Shown: positions 5,512 through 34,823, numbered from the stretch's first letter. The stretch is DNA of 34,823 nucleotides from Deltaproteobacteria bacterium ADurb.Bin207 (GCA_002070115.1 MWCO01000066.1:1-34823), one strand, 5' to 3'. Notes: generated from the letters alone by a model not told the origin. Numbers and translations are program-made.

Positions 5512-6390
5512 ATGGCATCGTTGAAACGATGGTCGTATTTGCTGTTGCTAGGCTCGCTGGGGTGTTCCAAGGCACCGCCGCCATCGCAGTTTCCGACAGC
5601 ACAAGCCGCGCTTGCGCGAATGAAAGCGGTATATGCTTGCACGCGGGGCGTGCAGGGAGATGGCAAGCTCGATCATATGAACGAGGCCGGACGCATTCGT
5701 GGTGATGTGATGCTCTTGGCGGTAGACCCCGCTCGTGTTCGCTTCGATGTCGTATCTCCGTTTGGAGTTACGCTTGCCACGCTCACCTCCGATGGCCAAC
5801 GCTTCTCGTTTTTTGACATGAAAAACAGTGCGTTTCTCGAAGGACCGCCGGAACCTTGCAATATCGCACGGCTGACACAGGTGCGGATGCCAGCCCATGC
5901 GTTAGTGCAGTTATTGCGTGGAGAAGCGCCGATATTGGTTCACAAGCCGGAGGCCGCAACGATTCAATGGAACGGTTCGGGGTATTATCGGGTTCAGATC
6001 CCGAGTCGGCATGAGGCGATGCAAGAGCTGCATCTGGAGCCAAACCCTTCGGACTATGCTCTTCCCTACCAGCAGCAGCGTGTTCGCGTTTTGTATGTAC
6101 GCGTTACCCAGCGGGACTACGTTCACTTCGAAGCCTCGTTATTCGATCACGCCGACGCGGTCACGATGCAAGCCAGGGTCGACGAGTTGGGCATCGATCC
6201 ACCGATTCCTCCAAGCGGTCCCGCATGTCGCGCGGAGATACCTCGTCGCATTCAGGTGCAAGTACCGTATACACACGATGATATGCGTTTTCGTTACGAG
6301 GAGGTGGGTCTCAACCCGCCTTTACCTGACGATATCTTCACACAACCAATTCCCGGAGGCGTTCGACGACAGTACGTGCAGTGCCGATAA
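5512..6390 (+). CDS. Lipoprotein, LolA/LolB-like fold possible
   Basis: A 292-residue exported lipoprotein. The N-terminus MASLKRWSYLLLLGSLGC ends in a lipobox (GSLGC), so the mature protein starts at Cys18. The body has alternating hydrophobic strands (GDVMLLAVDPARVRFDVVSP, GVTLATLTSDGQRFSFFD, SAFLEGPPEP) resembling the antiparallel sheet of the LolA/LppX/DUF4292 family, where cell-envelope lipoproteins hold acyl chains; this is inference from pattern only. Four Cys lie in the mature part besides the lipid-bearing one. The start at ATG 5512 is chosen because the signal peptide begins there. It lies 55 bases after the Nudix stop and just ahead of the pseudokinase gene, so the three may be cotranscribed. 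Confidence 0.8.
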   Translation: MASLKRWSYLLLLGSLGCSKAPPPSQFPTAQAALARMKAVYACTRGVQGDGKLDHMNEAGRIRGDVMLLAVDPARVRFDVVSPFGVTLATLTSDGQRFSFFDMKNSAFLEGPPEPCNIARLTQVRMPAHALVQLLRGEAPILVHKPEAATIQWNGSGYYRVQIPSRHEAMQELHLEPNPSDYALPYQQQRVRVLYVRVTQRDYVHFEASLFDHADAVTMQARVDELGIDPPIPPSGPACRAEIPRRIQVQVPYTHDDMRFRYEEVGLNPPLPDDIFTQPIPGGVRRQYVQCR

Positions 6391-6431
6391 GCTCTCATTC
6401 GTCCACGGTTCGTGACAAGGAGTTGCGATTG

Positions 6432-8009
6432 ATGGCAGAGGGTTCGACCGAACCATCCCGTTTGTTTTGCATGCACTGTGGAGGCACGCATCCGCCCGGA
6501 TTGCGCAGGTGTTCTTCCACGGGACGAAGTCTTGGGGGGGACCCACGTCTCATCGGCCAGTTCATTGCGCGTCGCTATCGTATCGTTCGAGTCCTCGGAG
6601 ATGGGCCTTTCGGGGCATCCTACAAGGCCGAGCACGTTGCGGTAGGAAGGTTCGTATCCCTTCGCATTCTTCATGCGGGATTGGTCACGAGTCCCGACGT
6701 GCTCCATCGTTTCTTTCGCGAAGCCCGTCTCGTGGGTTCCGTAACGCATCCGCGTTTGCAGCCTGTCGTCGACGCGGGGCTAAGCGACGACGGGATAGCG
6801 TACGTGGCGTATCAATACGAGCGAGGCCGAAGTCTGGCGAGGGCCTTTGCGCACAATACGGTGTTTTCGCTCGAGCAAGCAGCAACTTTGACGAGCGAGA
6901 TTCTTCATGGACTCGAGGCGATTCACAACTCGGGGTTTGTCCATCGAGCGTTGATTCCAGATTCCGTTTTGCTACAGCGGGGCGCATCGGGAACGGAGCA
7001 TGCCATGCTCACCAATTTTGGCGCGGCGACTTTCGAAAACCGTGAAGAAAACAGTCCCGTGTCAACCGTTGGCCTTCCTCCCTTTTCCCGCGGCCCCTAT
7101 CTGCTTGCTCCCCACGCCTATTGTTTGAAACCGGATCGTCGGGAGGATCTTTTCGCCGCGGGTGTTTTGCTTTCGGCCATGCTTTGTCCAGGAGGCATCC
7201 CGCGTTTCGGAGGTGATCTCATCGCTCTCGGCGTACCTGCGGCCCTCGAAGCGCTCATAGCACGGGCTACCCATCCTCGCATTGACGCTCGTTATTCGTC
7301 CGCAAGCGAAATGCTGGCACAGCTTCGTTCCTTTTCGGAGTTGGTCCACGACGATGTGGCATCGGTGACAGAAACGGTGATCAATGACCTGCGCGCTCTT
7401 CGCAATCGGGAGCGGGTGTTGGATGTCATTCCGGCGCGTCTTCGATTGGGCAGCGCAACGTCGATGATGGCATCGGCGTTGGCCGCGCCACTCGTGCGAG
7501 CATTGAAAAAAGAGTCCGCGCAGCGTTGGACCGAAATCGTTCACCGCGTACCGGGGATTGACAAAGTGCTCGATCTCACGGCGGACATCGGGCCCATTGC
7601 CGCAACGCCCATCATGGCGGCCCTGGAGGAAGCCGATGCCTTATGCGGCGTAGATGACCGATTATTCTGTGTCATCGTGGGGGAACGTGCGGGCAAAGAA
7701 GAGTTGAACGAGTGGTTTCGGACGATGTTGGACGCTCCTACTCCCGAATGTTTATTTGATGGGCTTTCGCGTCTATGGCCTAGCATGGTGGGCCAGGGCA
7801 TCGCTCGCGTGCGACAGGTTGGGCGGGGATATGGTCGGTTCGAGATTCGCGATCAACTCGAACCATCTTTCGCCATCTGCACGGCACTCGCGGGTGTGAT
7901 CAAAGCCGGTCTCGAGCACCTGGGCGCAAGATCCATTGAAGTATCCAAGACGGCTTGTGAGGCGGTGGGCGATCCTGCCTGCGTGTTCAATGTCACCTGG
8001 CTGAGTTGA
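6432..8009 (+). CDS. Pseudokinase with N-terminal Cys motif and V4R/DUF2378-like C-terminus
   Basis: 525 residues. Residues 13-27 hold a CxxC and a third Cys (FCMHCGG...RC), a remnant zinc ribbon. Residues about 50-310 have a protein-kinase fold, but every catalytic element is altered: the glycine loop is LGDGPFGASY, the VAIK lysine is Arg78 (VSLRIL), HRDxK reads HRALIP (Asp to Ala173), and DFG reads NFG (Asn195). It should not phosphorylate. The C-terminal 190 residues end in CEAVGDPACVFNVTW, matching the Cys-bearing end of V4R or myxobacterial DUF2378 domains, which bind small ligands. A clear AAGGAG at 6417-6422 supports ATG 6432 over the upstream ATG 6381. Likely a ligand-sensing scaffold; partner unknown. 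Confidence 0.85.
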   Translation: MAEGSTEPSRLFCMHCGGTHPPGLRRCSSTGRSLGGDPRLIGQFIARRYRIVRVLGDGPFGASYKAEHVAVGRFVSLRILHAGLVTSPDVLHRFFREARLVGSVTHPRLQPVVDAGLSDDGIAYVAYQYERGRSLARAFAHNTVFSLEQAATLTSEILHGLEAIHNSGFVHRALIPDSVLLQRGASGTEHAMLTNFGAATFENREENSPVSTVGLPPFSRGPYLLAPHAYCLKPDRREDLFAAGVLLSAMLCPGGIPRFGGDLIALGVPAALEALIARATHPRIDARYSSASEMLAQLRSFSELVHDDVASVTETVINDLRALRNRERVLDVIPARLRLGSATSMMASALAAPLVRALKKESAQRWTEIVHRVPGIDKVLDLTADIGPIAATPIMAALEEADALCGVDDRLFCVIVGERAGKEELNEWFRTMLDAPTPECLFDGLSRLWPSMVGQGIARVRQVGRGYGRFEIRDQLEPSFAICTALAGVIKAGLEHLGARSIEVSKTACEAVGDPACVFNVTWLS

Positions 8010-14692: not shown

Positions 14693-14749
14693 CCTATGGC
14701 ATCCTGTCCTTGTGCTACGCCAAGCCGAAGTCAAAAATTAGCAGAAACG

Positions 14750-15685
14750 ATGTTCTCCAACCAGGAATCAGCCGAGCCATCGGCGCAACAAACCCTTGAA
14801 AATGCGAAGAAACGCTTGGGTCAAATCGTCGACAACAAATACAAACTCATCTCCGTCATAGGAATTGGAGGGATGGGTATCGTTTACGAATCGGAGCATC
14901 AATTCCTGGGACGACACGTTGCCATCAAGATTTTGCATCCGCGATATGCGGATCGGTTGGAGGAATACCAGCGATTTTGTCGGGAAGCACGAGCCGTGGG
15001 GGCTCTATCTCATCGAACGATCGTGCAGGTTTTCGATGCTGGATTTCTCGATGGCACCACGCCGTATTTCGTGATGGAGCGACTGATTGGAGAAAACCTC
15101 GAGCAAACCCTTCGTCGCAACAAGATGCTGACCGCACGGCGAGCCTTTTGGATCGCCAATGAAGTTCTTCGCGGCCTAGCGGTAGCACATTCGAAAAACA
15201 TCCTGCACTGTGACATGAAGCCGGCAAACATCTATGTGGTTCGCCAAAACGATCGTAGAGAAAGCATCAAATTGCTCGACTTTGGAGTGGCCAAACTCGC
15301 CGTGGAAGGCTCCGCGGCATCGGTGGACGAGCGCACGGGACTCGTTTTCGGTACTCCACAATACATGGCTCCCGAGCAAGTCACGGGAGCCGAACTCGAT
15401 CCGAGAACGGATATCTATGCGGTAGGAACCATTCTTTACGAAAGCTTGATGGGCGAGCCCGCGTTCCAGGGTTCCACAAGGGAAAAAGTATTTCGAAACG
15501 TTCTTCAGGGAAAACCCAAAGCCCTCATTCCACCGACTGGCCGTCTTGCACCCGCGTTACAACAACTCGTCTCGAGCATGATGGCGAAAAATCCAGCAAA
15601 TCGGCCGTCAAGCGCCAAGGAGGTGTCCCGGTTCATCCTTGCACAAGGAGTGATCGATTCACCAAACGATCACGACTACCGATGA
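14750..15685 (+). CDS. Ser/Thr protein kinase, cytosolic, non-RD
   Basis: A 311-residue protein consisting of little more than a kinase domain. The glycine loop is GIGGMGIVYE (38-47), VAIK lysine is Lys60, the catalytic loop is HCDMKPAN (153-160), with Cys in place of the usual Arg, the DFG Asp is 177, and YMAPEQ follows. The Arg-less loop makes it a non-RD kinase, usually not controlled by activation-loop phosphorylation. No transmembrane segment or sensor domain is visible, so it should act on cytosolic partners. Met19 of the open frame is used because ATG 14696 would leave only 3 bases to the divergent lipoprotein gene. Neither start has a strong ribosome-binding site. Confidence 0.9.
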   Translation: MFSNQESAEPSAQQTLENAKKRLGQIVDNKYKLISVIGIGGMGIVYESEHQFLGRHVAIKILHPRYADRLEEYQRFCREARAVGALSHRTIVQVFDAGFLDGTTPYFVMERLIGENLEQTLRRNKMLTARRAFWIANEVLRGLAVAHSKNILHCDMKPANIYVVRQNDRRESIKLLDFGVAKLAVEGSAASVDERTGLVFGTPQYMAPEQVTGAELDPRTDIYAVGTILYESLMGEPAFQGSTREKVFRNVLQGKPKALIPPTGRLAPALQQLVSSMMAKNPANRPSSAKEVSRFILAQGVIDSPNDHDYR

Positions 15686-24516: not shown

Positions 24517-26259
24517 TCAAAGTCCAAACACCTCGTGCGGTTTTCGTCGCTTATCAATAGGTTTAGGATAACGGCGAGGGGGCGCTTGCGATGGCACAGG
24601 CGTTGAGGATGACCCTTCCGTATCCGTTATCGGTAAACGTTCCACATCCAGTACCGGCGGTACAACCGACAATGCCGGAGGCGATGATACACTCGCGGGA
24701 GCCGCGGTGACTACTGGCTCAGTCACCGCTAACGAAGCCTCCGGGTCCAATTCTTGAACAGAAGCCGTGAGGAGCTTGGGAGCGGCCAGCCAAACCGACG
24801 ATGCCCCGACACCGGCAGCAACAAACATGGTCAAGACCGCAAGCGCGTACAATCGCCACCGCCGACGAGGCCGCGCCTCGGACCATTCCGTCCCCGGAGC
24901 CCGAATGGAAACGATGGAACCATCCACCGTCGATGCCGAGCCCGACACAGGGTTCGTTGTCGTATCGTTCCAATCGTCAGAACGTAACGCCACGGCAACA
25001 TCACGCATAATCCGCGTCGGCTCGTCGGTATCTTCCGAAATAGAAAGCGATTTGGGCTGGTGCGGCTCCTGCCGAACGGTGGGTACCGCACCATCGAGTT
25101 CAGCAAAATTGACAGGATTGGTGGCTGGTTCTACCTCGACAGAGTGAGACTCTCCCCCCGGATCGTAACGTCGAAGCTGAGGTTGGGTGGCAAAGGCCTC
25201 CGGCAGTGGAGAATACTCGGGCGAGGAAGGATCGTGATCGAGGGATTGCTCTGTGGAACTGGCCTGACTGCAGTCGACCGAAATGCCGGTCTCCGTCACG
25301 GATGACATCGAAGGTGGCCGCATTTCCGGTTCAAGAGCCTCGAACGCCATGCCCGTGAGCGACGATACGGTTCCAGGAAGGAGGGCTTCTCGCAAGGCGG
25401 CTGCCATTTCGGCAGCGTTTTCAAAACGGCGATTCGGATTTGGATTCAAAGCTTGATCGGTCCAAGCATCAAACTCCGGGGGAATGGGACGCAAGGTGGA
25501 TGGGGGAGGATAATCCACTTCGGCAATGGCTTTGAGCAGCCCGAGCAGATCATCCGCGTGTTCATCGAAAGGCCGCCTACCCACGACGCATTCGTACACA
25601 ACGACCGCCAAAGCCCATAGGTCCACCTTGGCATCGATCGGTTTTTTCCCCCGTGCACGCTCCGGACTCAAATAATGGGTGGTGCCGATGACCGCATCCG
25701 TTCGCGTCAACGCTTGCTTGTCATCACTCTGAATCAACTTCGCAATTCCGAAGTCAACAAGTTTGGGAACCTCTCCATCATCGGTTCTGTGCAAGAAAAT
25801 GTTGTCCGGTTTGATGTCCCTGTGAATGATGCCCTTGGCATGCGCCTTGTCCACGGGGCGAGCTATTTGCTCCACAATCCAAACGACGGAGACGGCATCC
25901 AGGGTCTTGCGTCGTTGCAGTCTTTTCGCGAGGGTTTCGCCTTCGAGCAGTTCCATCGCGAAATACGGAACCTCGCCATGCACACCGTATTCGAGGATAT
26001 GGACCACATTTGGATGCTTGAGAGCAGCAACCACCCGCGCTTCCGCCTCGAATCGCGCGCGAGCCACTTGCGAATGAGCATCCACCGACCTCAGCATCTT
26101 CAAGGCGACAGGAATCCCCAATACGAGGTGCTCCGCCCGCCAAACGATGGCCATGCCCCCCGAACCAATCGGTTTGATGAGTTTGAATCGTTTGGACAAA
26201 ACGGTTCCCGGCCCGATGTTGGCCGGAAGACGAACCGCATTGTCCGATTGGGATCCCAT
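24517..26259 (-). CDS. Transmembrane Ser/Thr protein kinase
   Basis: 580 residues. Kinase domain near 25-290: glycine loop IGSGGMAIVW (31-40), ATP lysine Lys54 in VALKML, catalytic loop HRDIKPDN with Asp148, DFG Asp169 in LVDFGIAKL, then YLSPERARG. All catalytic residues present. An acidic, Ser/Thr-rich juxtamembrane linker of about 200 residues follows, then an RRRWR stop-transfer and one membrane helix (LYALAVLTMFVAAGVGASSVWL), and a Pro/Val/Ser-rich periplasmic tail ending in RRKPHEVFGL. Met48 of the open frame is used because the preceding 47 residues are Gly/Arg-rich without domain character. First gene of an operon with the TPR and Cys-rich lipoprotein genes. Confidence 0.92.
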   Translation of the reverse strand: MGSQSDNAVRLPANIGPGTVLSKRFKLIKPIGSGGMAIVWRAEHLVLGIPVALKMLRSVDAHSQVARARFEAEARVVAALKHPNVVHILEYGVHGEVPYFAMELLEGETLAKRLQRRKTLDAVSVVWIVEQIARPVDKAHAKGIIHRDIKPDNIFLHRTDDGEVPKLVDFGIAKLIQSDDKQALTRTDAVIGTTHYLSPERARGKKPIDAKVDLWALAVVVYECVVGRRPFDEHADDLLGLLKAIAEVDYPPPSTLRPIPPEFDAWTDQALNPNPNRRFENAAEMAAALREALLPGTVSSLTGMAFEALEPEMRPPSMSSVTETGISVDCSQASSTEQSLDHDPSSPEYSPLPEAFATQPQLRRYDPGGESHSVEVEPATNPVNFAELDGAVPTVRQEPHQPKSLSISEDTDEPTRIMRDVAVALRSDDWNDTTTNPVSGSASTVDGSIVSIRAPGTEWSEARPRRRWRLYALAVLTMFVAAGVGASSVWLAAPKLLTASVQELDPEASLAVTEPVVTAAPASVSSPPALSVVPPVLDVERLPITDTEGSSSTPVPSQAPPRRYPKPIDKRRKPHEVFGL

Positions 26260-26613
26260 CAGCAACAACCTTGCCAGAACGGAGCGCAACGCGCTACGGG
26301 AACGGCGCCCCTGAATCGGCCAAGGCCCGTGCCGTCTCCCGTCGACACCGAGACGGTACCTTTCCCAATCTCCAAAGCCTCCGCCCCATCCATTGCCCAA
26401 GTAGGCTTGAAAACCGGGTCATGCCCCCCCGCCCCCCCTCCGCCAACGAACGGGTGCGCTCGAATTCGGGTGTGTATCCCCGATCTTCGACCCCACCACC
26501 CTCCACGAATTGTCGACATTACGCATCACGTCAACCACACACCGAACCGTTAGAAACGCCCCCACCCGTCGTTTCTTCCTTGCTTCCGTGGTGGTGTCAT
26601 GAAGAGGGCGAGG
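26260..26613. other. 354-base gap between dsrP and the kinase gene, with one inverted repeat
   Basis: No gene was recognised. CCGTCTC (26332-26338) and GAGACGG (26350-26356) form a perfect 7-base inverted repeat with an 11-base spacer, 73 bases upstream of the kinase start; it could be an operator or a leader hairpin. A C-rich tract lies at about 26422-26442. I see no terminator with a T-run after dsrP, so read-through into the kinase operon is possible. Confidence 0.4.
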
Positions 26614-27768
26614 TTAGACGATGCTTTCGCGAACCCCGAGATAGATCTTGTAAAAGACCGTGATCATCAAAAAACCAAAGGCGTAAATGCCAAGGCTTAT
26701 CATCATCTCCGGCAACGTCGGCATGTATTCGGTGATATGCCCCACCGGGTTCGGGATGAAACCCGTCACGACCATGCCCATGCCCTTGTCAATCCAGATG
26801 GAGGCAAAGACGAGAACACAAGCCCAGGGCAGGATTTTCAGGTCGTTGCGAGTTTTGGGGTTGACGAGTATCGCAATGGCGATGATCGCCATGACCGCGG
26901 ATGTCCACATCCAAGGAACGAGCGCTTTGTGCTCATCGAGACCCACGTACAAATATTGGAAGGGAATCGTGTGGTGATGGCTTCCGCTATAAAACGCGGT
27001 GAACATCTCCATGGCCACGAAAAACACGTTGATGAGCATGCCGTAGGTCACGATTTGCGCGAGCTTGAGGATAGGCTCCTTGCCCACATCGTAGTTGCCG
27101 AATTTTTTGAGCGCGAACAGCAACAGGATGAGAAACGAAGGACCAGAGGCAAAGGCCGAAGCCAAAAAGCGCGGCGCAAGGATGGCGGTCAGCCAGAACG
27201 GGCGCGCGCCAAGTCCCGCATACAGAAATGCCGTGACGGTGTGAATGCTAACCGCCCAGGGGATCGATAGGTAGATAACGGGCTTGATCCAAGTGGGAGG
27301 AGCCTCCCCTTTTCGTTCCGCCACCAGCGAGACCCGCGTGACCAACGCATTGATCAACAGGTAACCGTTGATCACCACCGCATCCCAAAACAGGATCGAA
27401 TTGGGTGTGGGATGGAAGAAAAGGTTCATCGCTCGCTGCGGACTCCCGATGTCCACCACCACGAATAGAAGACACATCGTACAGGCGGAGACGGCAAGAA
27501 ACTCACCCAAGACCGTCATCTTGCCGAACGCCTTGTAGTTATGCAGGTAGTACGGCAGAACCACCATCACCGCCGAGGCCGCCACGCCCACCAGAAACGT
27601 AAGCTGCGCGATGTAAAACCCCCAGGTGACGTCTCTTCCCAGGCCCGTTATCCCCAAGCCCGTTTGAAGTTGTTGAAGATAAAAGACCGCGGCAATGCCA
27701 ATCAAAACGAGCAAAGCCCCCACCCATGCATAATACCGAGAGCTTCCTTGGAATACTTTCTCGAACAT
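26614..27768 (-). CDS. dsrP: DsrP, NrfD-type quinone-interacting membrane subunit
   Basis: Integral membrane subunit of DsrMKJOP that exchanges electrons with menaquinone. 384 residues with about ten hydrophobic helices, first at AWVGALLVLIGIAAVFYL. NrfD/PsrC-family features include VTWGFYIAQLTFLVGVAASAV and the conserved-looking PWAVSIHTVTAFLYAGLGARPFW-type segment, here split by Pro and Gly turns, and a late EMFTAFYSGSHHH region near the predicted quinone site. It is last in the dsrMKJOP order, 8 bases after dsrO, with GAGG 6 bases before the ATG. Position and size separate it from stand-alone NrfD or PsrC. No downstream dsr gene follows. Confidence 0.93.
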   Translation of the reverse strand: MFEKVFQGSSRYYAWVGALLVLIGIAAVFYLQQLQTGLGITGLGRDVTWGFYIAQLTFLVGVAASAVMVVLPYYLHNYKAFGKMTVLGEFLAVSACTMCLLFVVVDIGSPQRAMNLFFHPTPNSILFWDAVVINGYLLINALVTRVSLVAERKGEAPPTWIKPVIYLSIPWAVSIHTVTAFLYAGLGARPFWLTAILAPRFLASAFASGPSFLILLLFALKKFGNYDVGKEPILKLAQIVTYGMLINVFFVAMEMFTAFYSGSHHHTIPFQYLYVGLDEHKALVPWMWTSAVMAIIAIAILVNPKTRNDLKILPWACVLVFASIWIDKGMGMVVTGFIPNPVGHITEYMPTLPEMMISLGIYAFGFLMITVFYKIYLGVRESIV

Positions 27769-27776
27769 GGGCTACC

Positions 27777-28541
27777 TCACACGACGTAATAGACCTCAGG
27801 CTCCGTGCCCAGGTCGGGTTTTCTTCGAATGGTAAACTCCGTGGCGACGATCTTCGCCACCTCGGAGTTAGGATCCTCGAGATTGCCGAAAGCCAACGCG
27901 CCATGCGGGCAGGCTTCGACGCAAGCTGGCAATAGATTTTGCGAAAGACGCTTCTCACACAGCGTGCATTTCTCGACCACGCCCTTCATCCGTGTGGGAA
28001 AATCCGGTGTCATTTCCTTCACATACGGACGAGGGTTGACCCAGTTGAAACTCCTCGAACCGTAAGGACATGCCACCACGCAATACCGACATCCAATGCA
28101 CCGGTGCCAGTCCATCATCACGATGCCGTCTTCTCGACGCCACGTGGCCTTGGTGGGGCAAACCCGCACGCAAGGCGGATTGTCGCAATGATTGCAAAGC
28201 ACGAGCACGGGCTTTTTGCGAATGTGAGCAGGAAGCGGATGATTTTCAAACGATGGGAACACGTGGTCGAACTTCGGCTCCTTCCAGATCCACTTGATCT
28301 CGTGCAAAGGGTCGCCTTCGAAGTCGGGCACGTTATGCGTTTTATGACAGGCCTGGGTACATGCCCGGCAGTCCTCATGCTCCGCACATTTTCGCAGGTC
28401 GACAACCATCGCCCAACGCGTTCCACCCTTGCCCGGTTCGTAATGACCGGTGTCGGCGCAAGACGTCAGAGCAGCACCGGATGTGACCACCATGGCTCCA
28501 GCGGCCGCGTTACCCAAAAACGCTCTTCTGTCGTGTCGCAT
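27777..28541 (-). CDS. dsrO: DsrO, periplasmic ferredoxin-like iron-sulfur subunit
   Basis: 254 residues. A twin-arginine signal (RHDRRAFLGNAAAGAMVV, Arg5-Arg6) shows export of the folded protein by Tat. Sixteen Cys form four [4Fe-4S] binding sets: 52/58/61/65, 116/119/124/128, 148/151/154/158 and 192/195/207/211, as in the NrfC/PhsB/DsrO family. It passes electrons between the triheme DsrJ and DsrP on the periplasmic face. Its ATG shares one base with the dsrJ stop (TGATG), so it is translationally coupled. The longer open frame upstream of this Met is dsrJ in another phase and is discarded. Confidence 0.95.
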   Translation of the reverse strand: MRHDRRAFLGNAAAGAMVVTSGAALTSCADTGHYEPGKGGTRWAMVVDLRKCAEHEDCRACTQACHKTHNVPDFEGDPLHEIKWIWKEPKFDHVFPSFENHPLPAHIRKKPVLVLCNHCDNPPCVRVCPTKATWRREDGIVMMDWHRCIGCRYCVVACPYGSRSFNWVNPRPYVKEMTPDFPTRMKGVVEKCTLCEKRLSQNLLPACVEACPHGALAFGNLEDPNSEVAKIVATEFTIRRKPDLGTEPEVYYVV

Positions 28542-28930
28542 CACTTGTCCTCCGGCGCCACGTGACAGTCCCAACATGCGGGCGCCACACCCGCTGGGGT
28601 ATGACAACTGTCGCAGAACTTTTCCTTGTTCGAATGACAGTTCATGCACGTCTTGGACAGACTGTAATCGTAGTGAACCCCATCGACCGTCACCTTCGGT
28701 CGCTTCCCATCGCGAACGACCATGTTGCGCCACTCATCAAGAATATGCATGTGCTCGGCGCGCATGTAGCCATTGGCCGTTTCAGCCACGCATTGCTTGG
28801 TGCCATTGGGCGGAGGTTCGAGTTGCACCGCATACGCCCCTTTGCCCGCGGCAATGTTGTACCAAATGGGAAAGGCACTCACCCCAACGAAAACCGCAAG
28901 GCCAAGGACGATCTTGCCCGCATCATACAT
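28541..28930 (-). CDS. dsrJ: DsrJ, triheme cytochrome c
   Basis: 129 residues. An uncleaved-looking membrane anchor (IVLGLAVFVGVSAFPIWY, residues 7-24) is followed by a periplasmic part with exactly three CxxCH heme sites: CMNCH (95-99), CDSCH (106-110) and CWDCH (119-123). The only other Cys is Cys47 in GTKQCVAE, matching the position of the unusual Cys heme ligand reported for DsrJ of purple sulfur bacteria. MRAEHMHILDEWRNMVVRDG is the conserved central stretch. It overlaps the dsrK stop by 8 bases and has GGAGG 5 bases upstream, so both ends of the gene are translationally coupled to neighbours. Confidence 0.95.
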   Translation of the reverse strand: MYDAGKIVLGLAVFVGVSAFPIWYNIAAGKGAYAVQLEPPPNGTKQCVAETANGYMRAEHMHILDEWRNMVVRDGKRPKVTVDGVHYDYSLSKTCMNCHSNKEKFCDSCHTPAGVAPACWDCHVAPEDK

Positions 28931-30557
28931 CGCCGCCTCCTTCCGATTCGTCGTCATCCTCTTCCGCGCGAAGGTTGATCTTGCCCGCTTTGCGCTCCTC
29001 ACTTTCGCCCGGCATGATGAGGGCGTTGCCCAATAGCTCATGCACACCGCAGACTCCCACGCCCGGCGCCCAATACTCGACCAAAGGCGGAAGAGTTGCC
29101 TTGTCGATCGCGCAGATGCACGCGAGCATGTTCACACCGTGCTTGTCTCGCACATACGAGACCGCATTGCCGCGCGGCAAACCACCTCGTAACCTCATCT
29201 CCATGTTCTCGTCGTTGCCGAGCCCCGCGCCTCCCGCACAACAAAACGTCTGCTCGCGGATCGTGTTCTCCGGCATCTCGTAGAACTGCTCGCATACGTT
29301 GCGAAGGATGTATCGCGGCTCCTCGAACAACCCAAGCGCCCGCGCGGGGTTGCAGGAATCATGAAAGGTCGGAATGACCTTACGGTTGCGCCGCGGATCG
29401 AGCTTCAGTTTGTTGTGCTTGATCAAGTCCGCCGTGAACTCGCAAATATGGACCATTTTGGTCGATCGGGTGTTTTCGAAAACAGTGCCGGTGATGGGAG
29501 AACGAGGCACCTCGAGGTGGTTGGCAGGACCGTTGAGCGTGTCCATGTATTGATGGACCACACGCCACATATGCCCGCATTCACCTCCCAAAATCCACTT
29601 GACCCCCAACCGCTCCGCCTCGTGATACATCTTTGCGTTCAAGCTTTTGATCGTATCGTGAGACGTGAACAAGCCGAAGTTGCCACCCTCGGATGCGTAG
29701 GAGCTGAACGTGACATCGAGATCGAGGTACTTGAAGAGCAACAGGTACCCCATCAAGGTATAAATCGCAGGCTCCGCAAATACGTCCGCCGAGGGCGTGA
29801 TGAACAGAATCTCCGCACCCTTGCGGTTGAACGAAGGCATCGCGTTGATGCCCGTGGCCGTCTCGAGTTCATCGACCACGAACTCGATGTTGTCCTTGAA
29901 CGTGTGCGGCTGCAGACCGAGATGGTTGCCCGTCCGAAAGCAATTGGCAGCAGGTTCGAGCGCCCAGTTGATGCCAAGACCAAGCTCATAAAGAAGCTCA
30001 CGCCCGATCATCGTGATCTCGGCGGTATCGATGCCGTAGGGGCAAAACACGGAACACCGACGACATTCCGTGCATTGGTAGAAGTAGTAGTACCACTCCT
30101 TGATGACGTCTTCGGTGAGTTCGCGTCCTCCCGCCAAACTGCCAAGGAGCTTGCCCGCGACCGTGAAGTTCTTTCGGTAGATGGAGCGCAGCAATTCGGC
30201 GCGCAGCACGGGCATGTTTTTCGGGTCGCCCGATCCCATGAAGAAGTGACACTTGTCCGCGCACGCGCCGCAACGGACACAAATGTCCATGAACAAGGAA
30301 AAGGATCGGAACTTTTGCAAGCGGTCCGAGATGCCGTCGAGTATCTTTTCCTTCCACTTGTCGCCGAGCATCCAATCCTTGTCATCCACCGCCCAGGCGT
30401 GTGGATTGGGCATTTTGAGATACTCGACATTCTTTTTTGCGGCCGGGAAGTTGTAGGTTCCTGACTTGAACTGGACAGGCGTGTCCATCCAGTCGCTTTC
30501 GGGCGGCTGAAAGCTGACGCGTGCCAACTCTTCCGGTTTGGGCATGTCGCTAGACAT
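28923..30557 (-). CDS. dsrK: DsrK, HdrD-like iron-sulfur subunit
   Basis: Cytoplasmic catalytic subunit of DsrMKJOP, related to heterodisulfide reductase HdrD, thought to reduce or oxidise the DsrC trisulfide/disulfide. 544 residues. Two ferredoxin-type [4Fe-4S] sites: Cys93/96/99/103 (CVRCGACADKC) and Cys162/165/168/172 (CTECRRCSVFC). The C-terminal half holds CCG-type motifs for the noncubane cluster: GGECGHMWRVV, FHDSCNPAR and TFCCAGGAGLGNDE. The tail ends in an acidic EEDDDESEGGG. ATG 30557 is chosen over the first ATG (30575) because GAGAGG lies about 7 bases before it. It follows dsrM after 60 bases and overlaps dsrJ. Confidence 0.96.
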   Translation of the reverse strand: MSSDMPKPEELARVSFQPPESDWMDTPVQFKSGTYNFPAAKKNVEYLKMPNPHAWAVDDKDWMLGDKWKEKILDGISDRLQKFRSFSLFMDICVRCGACADKCHFFMGSGDPKNMPVLRAELLRSIYRKNFTVAGKLLGSLAGGRELTEDVIKEWYYYFYQCTECRRCSVFCPYGIDTAEITMIGRELLYELGLGINWALEPAANCFRTGNHLGLQPHTFKDNIEFVVDELETATGINAMPSFNRKGAEILFITPSADVFAEPAIYTLMGYLLLFKYLDLDVTFSSYASEGGNFGLFTSHDTIKSLNAKMYHEAERLGVKWILGGECGHMWRVVHQYMDTLNGPANHLEVPRSPITGTVFENTRSTKMVHICEFTADLIKHNKLKLDPRRNRKVIPTFHDSCNPARALGLFEEPRYILRNVCEQFYEMPENTIREQTFCCAGGAGLGNDENMEMRLRGGLPRGNAVSYVRDKHGVNMLACICAIDKATLPPLVEYWAPGVGVCGVHELLGNALIMPGESEERKAGKINLRAEEDDDESEGGGDV

Positions 30558-30617
30558 CGCTCTTCCTCTCTGCAAGGACCCGCTCGCGACCCAAAGGCCG
30601 CGGCCGAATCACCGCGA

Positions 30618-31658
30618 TCAATCGTCGACTTTCTTTTCCCCCGCCTTGGCCTTTTTCGGCTCTTCGGTTTCTTTTTTGTCCACGGGAAGCCCGCAGGCGA
30701 TCATCTTGTCGCGGAATTCATCTTCGTATTCCGCGTACGTATGCACGCGTACAGGATGGTTCCACGGATTGATATGACGCACCTCGCGACTGTTGCAGCG
30801 CAGGTTGCGGGTGGGACTCATGAATACGCCCGCCATGTGGGTGAGCTTGCTAAACGGAAAGTACGCGAGCAGCACGCAAACCAAAAACATGTGCGCAAAG
30901 AAAATCGGCCCAACACCGTCGGGCACCACCGGCTTGAACGTAGCCAGTCCCGTCGCCATCTCCTTCACACTCACGATGTCCGTCTTCATGAAGTGGCGCA
31001 TCAAAATGCCCGTGATGGCGATGCCCATCACCAAAAACAGCGGGAAATAATCCGCCATCAAGGAGATGTAGCGGACCTGTGCATCGAGCATACGACGCAA
31101 AAATAGGACGCTGGCGGCGAGCAACAATCCGACACCGGTCAAGTACAAGGCGGGAATGCCGATCTCGAAAAAGCCGTCGACCGCCTGAAGCAAAGGAACG
31201 AAAAAAGGAACCGGCTCGGTGAAAAAGCGCATGTGTCTCAACACGATGACGAGAAAAGACCAATGAAACAGCATCGCCGCAGCCCACAGAACCCACTCGC
31301 CATCGTAGGTCACGCGAGGGCCATCCTTGACGGCCACCCGGGTGTTTCGAAATAGAGAGCGGAAGGTGAGCACTTCGAAGGCCATGCGCAGAATCACTCC
31401 GCCTGTCGTGGACGGATTTTCGAGGGAGGCATGTTTGATCCACGGCAGCGATTTTTGCTGGCCACAGGTGGTGGCGATGGCAAAGGGTACGGGTGCCTTG
31501 CCCCACTTGAAAGCAACCCGATAGATGATGCCGCCAAGGAAAACCGCCATGGCCGCGTAGGGCACGGCAACACCAAAGACAAACTTCGCGCTCGGTCCGA
31601 CCATGTACGCGATGGCGAACAGCACGATCACAGCCACGAGGGCGGATACCGCTTTCAT
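30618..31658 (-). CDS. dsrM: DsrM, NarI-like membrane cytochrome b
   Basis: 346 residues. Membrane cytochrome b of DsrMKJOP, expected to bind two hemes b and exchange electrons between menaquinol and DsrK. An N-terminal hydrophobic helix (ALVAVIVLFAIAYMVGP) and further helices include AAAMLFHWSFLVIVLRHMRFF, PLFLVMGIAITGILMRHFM and PIFFAHMFLVCVLLAYFPF, whose His residues are the likely heme ligands. The C-terminus is a long, charged cytoplasmic tail ending in KKAKAGEKKVDD. The start codon overlaps the stop of the RsbRD-domain gene by 4 bases (ATGA), so they are translationally coupled. Order and size fit dsrM rather than narI. Confidence 0.95.
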   Translation of the reverse strand: MKAVSALVAVIVLFAIAYMVGPSAKFVFGVAVPYAAMAVFLGGIIYRVAFKWGKAPVPFAIATTCGQQKSLPWIKHASLENPSTTGGVILRMAFEVLTFRSLFRNTRVAVKDGPRVTYDGEWVLWAAAMLFHWSFLVIVLRHMRFFTEPVPFFVPLLQAVDGFFEIGIPALYLTGVGLLLAASVLFLRRMLDAQVRYISLMADYFPLFLVMGIAITGILMRHFMKTDIVSVKEMATGLATFKPVVPDGVGPIFFAHMFLVCVLLAYFPFSKLTHMAGVFMSPTRNLRCNSREVRHINPWNHPVRVHTYAEYEDEFRDKMIACGLPVDKKETEEPKKAKAGEKKVDD

Positions 31659-32200
31659 CCTTCGTCACCCCTGTCGTTGGGTTCCCATTCGGAAGAACCG
31701 TTGGATCGAGCGTGCGTCGCAGGACGATTTGCGCGTTCCAACATCACGTGGTTCAGCTTCTTGAGTTGGTTGTAACGGACTTCATACACTTTCTCGCGAC
31801 AGCGCATGTACACATCGAAGGCAACGAGCGCCAAAGCATCGATGCGCGTGTCCCATCGTTCCCAGGAAGGGTCGCCCGCCGGCAAGCTCAGTTCTTCTCG
31901 TAAAATGGTCTTGGCGATGAACACGAATTGAACGGCCTGCGCAGGCGTGAAGTCCTGCAACGCCCGCAGTTTCAATAGGCCCTCCAAAGCCGCATCGACC
32001 TTGGCCACTTCCACACCTTGCTCGAGCGCGTCCACGAGCGCCTCGATGCATTGACGCACGAGGTGGCCCCCAGGATTGGCAAAAGCATCCTTTTGACGTC
32101 GCATGAACCTGGCGCTGTCAGCCGGATACGTATTGAGCACGGCATCGGTCCAGCGCTGCGTGAGCGTGGCGCGCTTGTGCGTGAGCAACGGCTCCTCCAT
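31655..32200 (-). CDS. RsbRD N-terminal domain protein of the dsr operon
   Basis: 181 residues, all-helical in pattern, matching the RsbRD_N family: QRWTDAVLNTYPADSARFM (about 15-33), FANPGGHLVRQCIEALVDAL, then LLKLRALQDFTPAQAVQFVF and AFDVYMRCREKVYEVRYNQ. In sulfate reducers small proteins of this family are encoded just before dsrM; their role is unknown and they may sense redox state or regulate the complex. No STAS domain follows, so it is not a full RsbR. ATG 32200 is preferred because the predicted promoter just upstream would start the transcript near 32241, at or inside the alternative TTG (32242). Overlaps dsrM by 4 bases. Confidence 0.88.
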   Translation of the reverse strand: MEEPLLTHKRATLTQRWTDAVLNTYPADSARFMRRQKDAFANPGGHLVRQCIEALVDALEQGVEVAKVDAALEGLLKLRALQDFTPAQAVQFVFIAKTILREELSLPAGDPSWERWDTRIDALALVAFDVYMRCREKVYEVRYNQLKKLNHVMLERANRPATHARSNGSSEWEPNDRGDEG

Positions 32201-32247
32201 GGTAGACGTCCGGGGGCACGAAAGGTGAGGCCCACGGGTCAATCACC

Positions 32248-32276
32248 CGTATATGCAAGGCTTGATTGCAGGTCAA
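32248..32276 (-). promoter_or_regulatory. Predicted promoter for rsbRD-dsrMKJOP with inverted repeat in spacer
   Basis: On the minus strand TTGACC (32276-32271) and TATACG (32253-32248) are 17 bases apart. The spacer is itself a near-operator: TGCAA and TTGCA at its two ends (32254-32258 and 32266-32270) form a 5-base inverted repeat. Transcription would start near 32241. Confidence 0.5.
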
Positions 32277-32309
32277 CCATGCAAGCGAGAGGGACTGAGA
32301 TTGGTCACA

Positions 32310-32334
32310 ACGTCATAGTGCTGACAAATGACGT
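32310..32334. promoter_or_regulatory. Inverted repeat ACGTCAT-N11-ATGACGT, candidate activator site
   Basis: Perfect 7-base arms (32310-32316 and 32328-32334) with an 11-base spacer, centred about 80 bases upstream of the predicted rsbRD-dsrM transcription start. Half-sites 18 bases apart, nearly two helical turns, suit a dimeric regulator. Its identity is unknown. Confidence 0.4.
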
Positions 32335-32426
32335 AAGCGGTAGAGTATTTAACTCACAATATATTCGTTAGCATAGGCTACGACACAGTCAATGAGCGGG
32401 CATCCATGATGAGGGGATAAGGTGTA

Positions 32427-32457
32427 GCCCAACGAAAGAAGGGATTTATCGTTGGGC
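32427..32457 (-). terminator. Perfect 9-bp hairpin downstream of dsrC
   Basis: GCCCAACGA (32427-32435) and TCGTTGGGC (32449-32457) form a perfect stem with a 13-base loop, 30 bases after the dsrC stop. No T-run follows on the minus strand, so it may act as an mRNA-stabilising or attenuating hairpin rather than a full terminator. It separates dsrL-dsrC from the downstream unit. Confidence 0.5.
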
Positions 32458-32486
32458 GTGAGAAGGGAAGGTCTATTGGGACGACA

Positions 32487-32804
32487 TCAAACGCAGCCGG
32501 TTGGCTTGGGCAGTCCGGCGACTTTGCAGGCTCCCTTTGCCGGGCCGCTCGGGAAAAGCTCGTAGATTTGCTTGAGGGAGTACTTGGACTCCTTGCAGAG
32601 CTTGCGGATCATCGGAGCCACACCGAATTTGAGGTAGTAATCCCGAAGGTAGTTCACGACTTTCCAATGGTCTTCGGTCAATTCCGTGACTCCTTCGGTA
32701 GAAGCGAGCGCCTTCGCTACTTCCTCGTTCCACTTCTCGGGCTCTTCCATGAAGCCGTCTTCGTCGACTTGAATGCTCACACCCTCGTACTCAAAGGTTG
32801 CCAT
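32487..32804 (-). CDS. dsrC: DsrC, sulfur-carrier protein
   Basis: DsrC carries the sulfite-derived sulfur between DsrAB and DsrMKJOP as a trisulfide on its flexible C-terminal arm. 105 residues, standard length. Both functional cysteines are present: Cys93 and the penultimate Cys104 in GACKVAGLPKPTGCV, with the required 10-residue spacing between them. This separates it from TusE, which has only the penultimate Cys. GFMEEPEKWNEEVA, HWKVVNYLRDYYLKFG and APMIRKLCKESKYSLKQIY match the family core, and a third Cys (Cys70) is non-terminal. GGAGGAG lies 10 bases before the ATG. It follows dsrL by 54 bases, in the same transcript. Confidence 0.97.
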   Translation of the reverse strand: MATFEYEGVSIQVDEDGFMEEPEKWNEEVAKALASTEGVTELTEDHWKVVNYLRDYYLKFGVAPMIRKLCKESKYSLKQIYELFPSGPAKGACKVAGLPKPTGCV

Positions 32805-32858
32805 GACGTGTTTTCTCCTCCACTAGCAGCTTCGTTGTTGCGAAACAGGTCCTTACGA

Positions 32859-34547
32859 TTACGCCATTTCGATATAACCGCAGGGGCATTGCTCCGCGCA
32901 CTTCTTGCAGCCCTGGCAGAACTCTAGCTTGAAAGCATAGGGCTCGCCCTTGTTCAACGGACGGATAATGGCACCATCTCCGCACATCGTCCAGCAGTGT
33001 CCGCACTCGAAACACAAACCGCAACTCATGCAGCGTTTGGCCTCTTCAAAAGCCTCATCTTGTGTCAATCCCTTTTCGACCTCGAGTTCGGGTTGCGCGA
33101 GGCGCGTGGGGACATCCGCGCCGGGCTGAGGCACCACACGGTCTTTTTTCTCAAACCAGGCCCGATTCATCTTGTCTTTGTGAATGATCGGTGCCATCGG
33201 CGTGATCGACACCTGCTCACAACGCAACACTTGGTGAATCGTTGCCGCGGCGCGACTCCCTTGCGCTATGGCGGTCGTCACCAGCGCCAGGTCCAGAACG
33301 TCGCCTCCCGCGTAAACCCCCTCTTGATTGGTCCGGTGGAACTCATCGACCTTCACCCAATCCCGGCCCGTATGCAAATCATCGAATCCTTCGAAGTCCG
33401 GCTCCTGACTGATGGCCGAAACCACGGTGGTGCAATCTAGCGTAAACACCGCGCCTTCGATGGGTACGGGGCGACGACGTCCGCTGGCATCGGGCTCTCC
33501 CAATTCGGTTCGTTGGAACTTCATCGCGACAGCACGGTCGCCTTCTTTGATGACTTCCAACGGCATGACGAGAAACTCGAAGTTCACCCCTTCCTCTTTG
33601 GCTCCCTCGATTTCCGGCTCGATCGCGGGCATTTCGTGAATGGTGCGACGATACACGATCCAGACTTCCGCGCCGAGACGCCGGGATACCCGCGCGGCAT
33701 CGATGGCGGCATCACCACCACCAATGACAAGCACCTTGTTGCCCACGTCGACCTGCTTGCCAGACATCACCGCATTCAAAAAGGTCGTGGCCGTCCATAC
33801 GTTGGCCGCATCCTCACCAGGAATGCGCAACGCCTTACCCTTATGCGCACCAATTCCCACGAAAATGGCAGCATAGTCTTTTCGCAGATCCGTATAGGGG
33901 AAGTCACGCCCCACAGCCGTGTTGAGCTTAATCTCCACCCCCAACTTTTCGATACGCGCAATCTCACCGTCGAGCACGTCCGCAGGCAATCGATAGCGCG
34001 GGATACCATAACGCAACATCCCACCGGTCTGGCTGAAAGCCTCGAATACCGTCACCCGATACCCGCGTCGCGCCAATTGGTAGGCGCAGGAAAGGCCCGC
34101 CGGACCCGCACCAATCACGGCAATCTTCTCGGGATGGACCTCGTCGGTCAACTTCTTGAGGGCAAGCCCCTTCTGCAAACCGAAGTCACCGATGATACGC
34201 TCCAATTGGTTGATGGAAACCGCCCCTTCCATGTCTGCACGATTGCAAACCGTCTCGCAGGGATGCGGACAGACACGCCCACAGACCGCCGGGAATGGAG
34301 AGGTTTCGGTAAAACGTTCCCAGGCAAGCTCCAACGACTCTTCCCGCGTTCGACCATAATCCTCGGTCTGCGCCATGATTTGCAAGGCGCCGCGAATGTC
34401 GTTGTGAATGGGACACCCATCGGTGCATGGTGGAGTCTTGAGTACGTGCTTCGGGCGGAGCGCCGATGTCTCGCCGCCTCCCCGTGGCCCTCCCGACCCT
34501 ACCGCCCTAGTCTGCAACTTCTTTTTTTGCTTGAGTACGAGCGCCAT
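32859..34547 (-). CDS. dsrL: DsrL, iron-sulfur flavoprotein NAD(P)H:acceptor oxidoreductase
   Basis: 562 residues, related to glutamate synthase small subunit. N-terminal iron-sulfur Cys: 41, 45, 89, 93, 97, 101 (CTDGC, CGRVCPHPCETVC). FAD Rossmann motif VIGAGPAGLSCAYQL (144-158) and a second NAD(P)H motif VIGGGDAAIDAA (274-285) followed by IVYRRTIHEMPA. A C-terminal ferredoxin-like part (506-556) has many Cys (CMSCGLCFECGHC, then CQGCKKCAEQCPCG), a feature of DsrL absent from plain GltD. DsrL exchanges electrons between NAD(P)H and DsrAB. GGAG about 6 bases before ATG 34547 fixes the start; the frame also has a TTG one codon earlier. First gene of the cluster, no gltB nearby. Confidence 0.9.
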   Translation of the reverse strand: MALVLKQKKKLQTRAVGSGGPRGGGETSALRPKHVLKTPPCTDGCPIHNDIRGALQIMAQTEDYGRTREESLELAWERFTETSPFPAVCGRVCPHPCETVCNRADMEGAVSINQLERIIGDFGLQKGLALKKLTDEVHPEKIAVIGAGPAGLSCAYQLARRGYRVTVFEAFSQTGGMLRYGIPRYRLPADVLDGEIARIEKLGVEIKLNTAVGRDFPYTDLRKDYAAIFVGIGAHKGKALRIPGEDAANVWTATTFLNAVMSGKQVDVGNKVLVIGGGDAAIDAARVSRRLGAEVWIVYRRTIHEMPAIEPEIEGAKEEGVNFEFLVMPLEVIKEGDRAVAMKFQRTELGEPDASGRRRPVPIEGAVFTLDCTTVVSAISQEPDFEGFDDLHTGRDWVKVDEFHRTNQEGVYAGGDVLDLALVTTAIAQGSRAAATIHQVLRCEQVSITPMAPIIHKDKMNRAWFEKKDRVVPQPGADVPTRLAQPELEVEKGLTQDEAFEEAKRCMSCGLCFECGHCWTMCGDGAIIRPLNKGEPYAFKLEFCQGCKKCAEQCPCGYIEMA

Positions 34548-34564
34548 CAAACTCTCCTACCGAC

Positions 34565-34603: not shown

Positions 34604-34823
34604 GGACTTCACCGGAAGGATTCCATCGTTGCATGGGTATTTGGACTCACATTCACGGTTGAGCCGCGCATACGAATTCATCGCGCCATTGATACGTTAG
34701 CCTTGGCTTGATTCGACAGCTATCCTTGATATTCCCATCCTTGCAGCTCGCAGCATCCCCTCCGCCCATATCGGCGCCCCCAACGCATGAATATGAACGT
34801 ATGTACCCAACACCCGCCCAACC

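Follow-up and report, generated by a model that had tools for sequence, protein, structure and literature searches.

The 34,823 bp stretch analysed here (the window) is contig C66 in a draft genome of Deltaproteobacteria bacterium ADurb.Bin207 (6.55 Mb in 220 contigs, 97% complete and 4.4% contaminated). Very probably, its right end holds the right-hand half of a full sulfate/sulfite-reduction locus of the reductive type, which was likely gained laterally and in which a DsrL of the 2C kind would feed electrons from NADPH to DsrAB. An earlier note on this DNA had read the region 31655-34547 as carrying mixed oxidative and reductive signatures, namely a DsrL together with an RsbRD-domain protein. 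That the two occur together is borne out by the open reading frames (ORFs) and by the Pfam and NCBIfam matches; the same span also contains dsrC, which the note did not mention. The idea of a mixture did not survive, as DsrL of this type adjoins reductive dsrAB and the RsbRD_N protein, DsrT, occurs in systems running in both directions. It stems from an older view in which DsrL marked oxidisers. Such an apparent mix of markers has been reported before from many uncultured bacteria (Hausmann 2018, Loeffler 2020, Diao 2023), and finding DsrL plus DsrT is no evidence that sulfur metabolism is mixed or reversible.

The dsrL gene (32859..34550, minus strand) is a complete ORF with start and stop that encodes 563 amino acids (aa). 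The protein has the Pfam domains Fer4_20 and Pyr_redox_2 and matches NCBIfam NF009410 with 584.8 bits against a cut-off of 516; its structure was modelled with a predicted local distance difference test score (pLDDT) of 89.5. It is laid out as an N-terminal 4Fe-4S domain, an FAD domain with an embedded NAD(P) domain, a linker and a C-terminal 2x[4Fe-4S] ferredoxin with cysteines at 507-557. A linker of about 100 aa between the NAD(P)/FAD part and the ferredoxin is among the features that define DsrL, and the protein has such a linker. DsrL-1A proteins have an extra loop of about 32 aa in the NAD(P) domain and a longer linker (Loeffler 2020, PMC7596348); from the alignment and the length of 563 aa, this insertion is missing here. 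The IVYRR motif pointed out in the earlier note is present at residues 298-302, and Ser29 and Arg32 occupy the positions of NfnB Cys39 and Cys42. YRR (residues 300-302) is a trait of DsrL-2, and in DsrL-2 found with reductive DsrA an Arg replaces the Cys at the NfnB Cys42 position (PMC7596348). Relatives were collected across a set of 80 named genome contigs plus five further genomes of the phylum; among them, position 32 is Arg in 23/23 DsrL beside reductive dsrAB and Cys in 10/10 beside oxidative dsrAB. This distal cluster-ligand residue thus matches the dsrAB type in 33/33 cases and can serve as a simple annotation aid.

The trees point the same way. The window DsrL falls within a 24-row set (SH-aLRT, the Shimodaira-Hasegawa-like approximate likelihood ratio test, 98) together with sequences of Zixibacteria, Calditrichota, Ignavibacteria and Acidobacteria. 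All 10 sequences associated with oxidative dsrAB fall into one group of their own (support 97), which includes Desulforhopalus IMCC35007 and Nitrospirae RBG_19FT_COMBO_42_15, both listed as DsrL-2 with an oxidative rDsrA (Loeffler 2020, PMC7596348). In the DsrAB tree the window genome lies in the reductive half (100), again with Zixibacteria/Calditrichota (96). By YRR, Arg32, the position in the DsrL tree and the reductive DsrAB, we assign the protein to DsrL-2C, the reductive kind of DsrL-2. DsrL-2C beside reductive DsrAB has been described as an indicator of reductive metabolism (Diao 2023, PMC10591310).

The remainder of the locus lies on other contigs. The single dsrAB pair of the whole genome is on contig C129, in the order aprA (3' part), a zinc-ribbon protein, a CxxCxxCC protein, qmoA, qmoB, dsrA, dsrB, an 83-aa 'dsrD' and dsrN (5' part). 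The window ends in the 3' end of dsrN (34700..34823, minus strand, truncated at the contig end), the product of which resembles cobyrinate a,c-diamide synthase and acts in siroheme amidation. With a Zixibacteria DsrN as query only two DsrN pieces were found in the genome, C129:12-422 (residues 11-147) and C66:34739-34807 (residues 441-463). The second is weak by itself in the genome search (E=0.47); in a small comparison it is 50% identical to the DsrN of L038 over 28 aa (E=1.6e-7), and it is 60% identical to that of L056 over 20 aa. We place C129 and C66 in one locus because dsrN is split between them, and aprA is split likewise, with C170 ending about 218 residues into AprA and C129 beginning at model position 221. 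No shared 19-mers were found at the ends of C66, C129 and C170, so adjacency was based on the two split genes instead. Most simply, the order is aprBA-...-qmoAB-dsrABD-dsrN-dsrL-dsrC-dsrT-dsrMKJOP, broken over C170, C129 and C66. The genome also has sat, on C90, along with aprB, aprA and qmoAB.

DsrC is encoded next to dsrL (32487..32804, minus strand; 105 aa, Pfam match E=2e-40), with its two C-terminal cysteines present (GACKVAGLPKPTGCV). Compared with solved structures it scores 126-135 bits to 2xsj, 1ji8 and 2v4j and 93 bits to 1yx3. The first three accompany dissimilatory sulfite reductases, and by its sequence the window DsrC is of the reducers' kind. As the earlier note had stated, there is no dsrEFH in the window, and at the sensitivity used none was found elsewhere in the genome either (a single DsrE-family match, no DsrH over the cut-off); dsrEFH together with an oxidative-type dsrAB was looked for in the genome and neither was found. 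One reductive dsrAB, DsrL-2C, sat/apr/qmo, a reducer-type DsrC and no DsrEFH jointly indicate sulfite/sulfate reduction, which is the most likely direction in the cell given this gene content. Electrons would then pass from NADPH to DsrL and through its FAD and FeS clusters to DsrAB, the donor being suggested by the kinetics of the Desulfurella amilsii DsrL-2, which uses NADP(H) (PMC7596348). From general pathway knowledge, DsrAB would reduce sulfite, the sulfur would then be loaded onto DsrC, and DsrMKJOP would reduce the DsrC trisulfide using menaquinol.

The sole DsrE-family protein (C137, 1501-1854) is encoded directly upstream of a cysteine desulfurase, and the two are possibly a sulfur-relay pair unrelated to DsrEFH.

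We weighed three other explanations. The earlier note had proposed a DsrL-2-like system that is either reductive or reversible. The reductive half of that proposal stands on YRR, Arg32, the trees, the single reductive dsrAB, sat/apr/qmo and the lack of dsrEFH, and the reversible half has no specific support. In a reversible system the same DsrAB, DsrL and DsrC would reduce sulfite under anoxic conditions and oxidise sulfide under oxic ones, a possibility that has been considered for peatland Acidobacteria sharing this gene set (PMC6018796), and DsrL, being an NAD(P)H oxidoreductase, could work both ways. However, published bidirectional candidates have two dsrAB sets, one of them oxidative, and often dsrEFH (PMC10591310), whereas this genome has one reductive dsrAB and no dsrEFH that we could find, and Arg32 tracks the reductive association in all 23 relatives that have it; we regard reversibility as unlikely. 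A dedicated sulfur oxidiser, in which DsrL would pass electrons from a reverse-acting DsrAB to NAD+, is more improbable still. Oxidation in Allochromatium does require DsrL (PMC7596348), but the DsrAB here is reductive by the tree, the DsrL lies outside the oxidative-associated group and has Arg32 in place of Cys, and DsrEFH was not found. It is hardly credible that the protein is a GltD/NfnA-type oxidoreductase and not DsrL at all, standing beside dsrC by chance. The nearest solved structures are indeed NfnABC/NfnI, and the family is large, with six further matches in the genome. Even so, in the tree the protein branches within the dsrL group and away from the NfnA-like rows; it carries ferredoxin domains at both ends; and genomes of different phyla keep it in this position, next to dsrN and dsrC. 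Its neighbours are the dsrN end and dsrC, with no link to pyruvate/ketoisovalerate:ferredoxin oxidoreductase genes.

Our preferred reading, a reductive locus with DsrL-2C, has several points weighing against it. Sequence alone cannot prove direction, and Desulfurivibrio has been proposed to oxidise sulfide via reductive-type genes (PMC6018796). YRR, the DsrL-2 motif linked to NADP preference, says little by itself: both reductive- and oxidative-associated DsrL have it, as do nearly all outgroup sequences, and so it is probably an ancestral trait that carries no information on direction. The rows of the DsrL tree comprise DsrL-2 of both kinds and outgroups with no certain DsrL-1 reference, and for this reason the split between DsrL-1 and DsrL-2 was judged by motif only. 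A qmoC was not located. The gene called 'dsrD' (C129, 721-470) also fits imperfectly: only 1/12 of its homologues gave a match to Pfam DsrD, below the cut-off (E=0.095), and the solved DsrD structure was not matched, either with the single sequence or with a profile against the Protein Data Bank (PDB). The dsrD check recommended in the earlier note thus turned up an 83-aa winged-helix-like gene that immediately follows dsrB and is kept in relatives, without a Pfam DsrD match over the cut-off. Its winged-helix matches are weak too. We name it DsrD for its place, for the usage in papers and for its likeness to winged-helix proteins. Hausmann 2018 (PMC6018796) reports that conserved hydrophobic residues are common to the acidobacterial DsrD and that of D. 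vulgaris. Papers on non-Desulfobacterota call the gene after dsrB dsrD, and its relation to classical DsrD deserves a proper test.

DsrL-2C itself is already known; what is new here is the host lineage, one more among the DsrL-2C reducers, and the predicted globin-like (RsbR-type) fold of DsrT. The dsrT gene (31655..32242, minus strand; 195 aa) lies 244 bases from dsrC and, as the earlier note had it, precedes dsrM, with its stop overlapping the dsrM start by 4 bases. Its product is a stand-alone RsbRD_N protein (Pfam E=4e-19), the sole one of the genome. Homologues with 26-40% identity lie immediately upstream of dsrM in more than 12 relatives, and those tested carry RsbRD_N; by sequence and by its place between dsrC and dsrM we identify the window protein as DsrT. 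Such a protein, called typical of sulfate reducers in the earlier note, is not limited to them. It is also found in L059 beside oxidative-type dsrAB, it occurs in Chlorobi (PMC10504309), and it was reported as required for sulfide oxidation in Chlorobaculum tepidum (PMC6018796). Conversely, no DsrT was found in the genome of L068, a carrier of reductive genes. A search of viral contigs for DsrT returned nothing.

The AlphaFold model of DsrT (pLDDT 87) shows a bundle made up of helices only. At the head of the structural ranking stand the RsbR N-terminal domain (2bnl) and Bacillus sensor-inhibitor domains related to it (Z 11-12), with phycobiliproteins and globin sensors coming next (Z about 9-10); against 2bnl the VIA Z is 11.6 over 126 residues, with a root mean square deviation of 3.7. 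Foldseek E-values were weak (best 0.08), and a Z of about 12 may lack specificity when proteins are helical; the fold assignment therefore leans chiefly on the Pfam match. A DsrT profile found nothing credible among PDB sequences. Like DsrT, 2bnl matches Pfam RsbRD_N and has a globin-like fold; unlike RsbR, DsrT has no STAS domain and has a long C-terminal helix. There is no invariant His in the DsrT alignment, from which we infer a haem-free sensor or a partner-switching role. We read DsrT as a predicted globin-like RsbR-type domain that probably has a sensory or regulatory role, and the predicted fold gives a testable idea for its function.

The locus appears foreign to its host. The TrmFO encoded on the window contig has its closest counterparts in genomes of the host's own family and order, which assigns the contig to the host lineage and makes mis-binning unlikely. 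A partial 16S sequence gives the impression of a Myxococcota-like host. At E<=1e-120 DsrL was found in 6/377 genomes of the phylum. The other five share the phylum but not the class of the window genome, and three of them fall elsewhere in both trees and have dsrABDL. Since DsrL and DsrAB group with Zixibacteria/Calditrichota while the flanking chromosome is that of the host lineage, the sequences suggest lateral acquisition from a Zixibacteria/Calditrichota-like source. A fuller version, in which a lineage with no other known DsrL in its class took the whole locus from such a donor and DsrT serves the DsrMKJOP branch as a sensor with a globin fold and no haem, we put forward only tentatively. 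Searches of plasmid records with DsrL and DsrB gave distant oxidoreductases only.

Compared with published DsrL-2C next to reductive DsrAB (PMC7596348, PMC10591310), the window protein shares YRR, Arg at the NfnB Cys42 position and the short form, and likewise adjoins reductive dsrAB and a dsrD-like gene, with no dsrEFH. No functional difference was seen; the host lineage is new, and the nearest relatives are 56-61% identical. The same order, dsrA-B-D-N-L-C-T-M-K-J-O-P, is found on one contig in each of two Zixibacteria (L028, L056) and one Calditrichota (L033), with 59-61% identity in DsrL and 71-73% in DsrA. In contrast to these three, our locus is split over contigs, has the zinc-ribbon and CxxCxxCC proteins between aprA and qmoA, and is accompanied by a second, divergent qmoAB beside aprBA. 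The peatland Acidobacteria SbA1-7 (Hausmann 2018, PMC6018796) have the same dsrL-dsrC pair with dsrAB, dsrD, dsrN, dsrT and dsrMKJOP, although the Acidobacteria in our trees branch apart from the window DsrL and DsrAB.

Directly downstream of dsrT, and also on the minus strand, is dsrMKJOP. The genes dsrM (30618..31658; NCBIfam NF038037, 506 bits, cut-off 300) and dsrK (28923..30575; NCBIfam NF045796, 707 bits, cut-off 400) are followed by dsrJ (28541..28930; NF038038, 151.5 bits, cut-off 100), where the match covers residues 40-162 of a long ORF (28541-29047) and the start was set by inspection at the Met preceding the signal-anchor. The start of dsrO (27777..28541, within the ORF 27777-28733) was also set by inspection; it encodes a ferredoxin-like protein with a twin-arginine leader (RRAFLG). 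The NrfD-family gene dsrP (26614..27768) was identified by a Pfam search and comparison with the clusters of relatives.

Some further observations were made in passing. The second qmoA/qmoB pair (C170, 2-2094, minus strand) is 53% and 43% identical to the first and is oriented away from aprBA, which is thus flanked by two Qmo sets, with qmoC seen in neither piece. On C133 an NfnA/StnA-like flavoprotein of 1158 aa is encoded next to a CCG protein of the HdrD/DsrK kind and to proteins resembling QmoA and QmoB; together they may form a bifurcating electron-transfer module of the Hdr type. Three contigs from Deltaproteobacteria/Desulfobacterales metagenome-assembled genomes (MAGs; L048, L051 and L054) encode DsrL-like proteins that are almost identical (branches 0.04-0.13), have Met at position 32 and make up a long branch of their own immediately outside DsrL; dsrAB is not nearby. 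On a Thermoleophilia contig (L036, 1717-10500) a reductive dsrAB-D-L and an oxidative dsrAB-L are adjacent, like a published dual-direction Actinomycetota MAG. The window also has four Ser/Thr protein kinase genes in its 35 kb (3-1046, 6381-8009, 14696-15685 and 24517-26400), and the kinase at 6381-8009 has a C-terminal V4R-like domain that scores under the Pfam cut-off.

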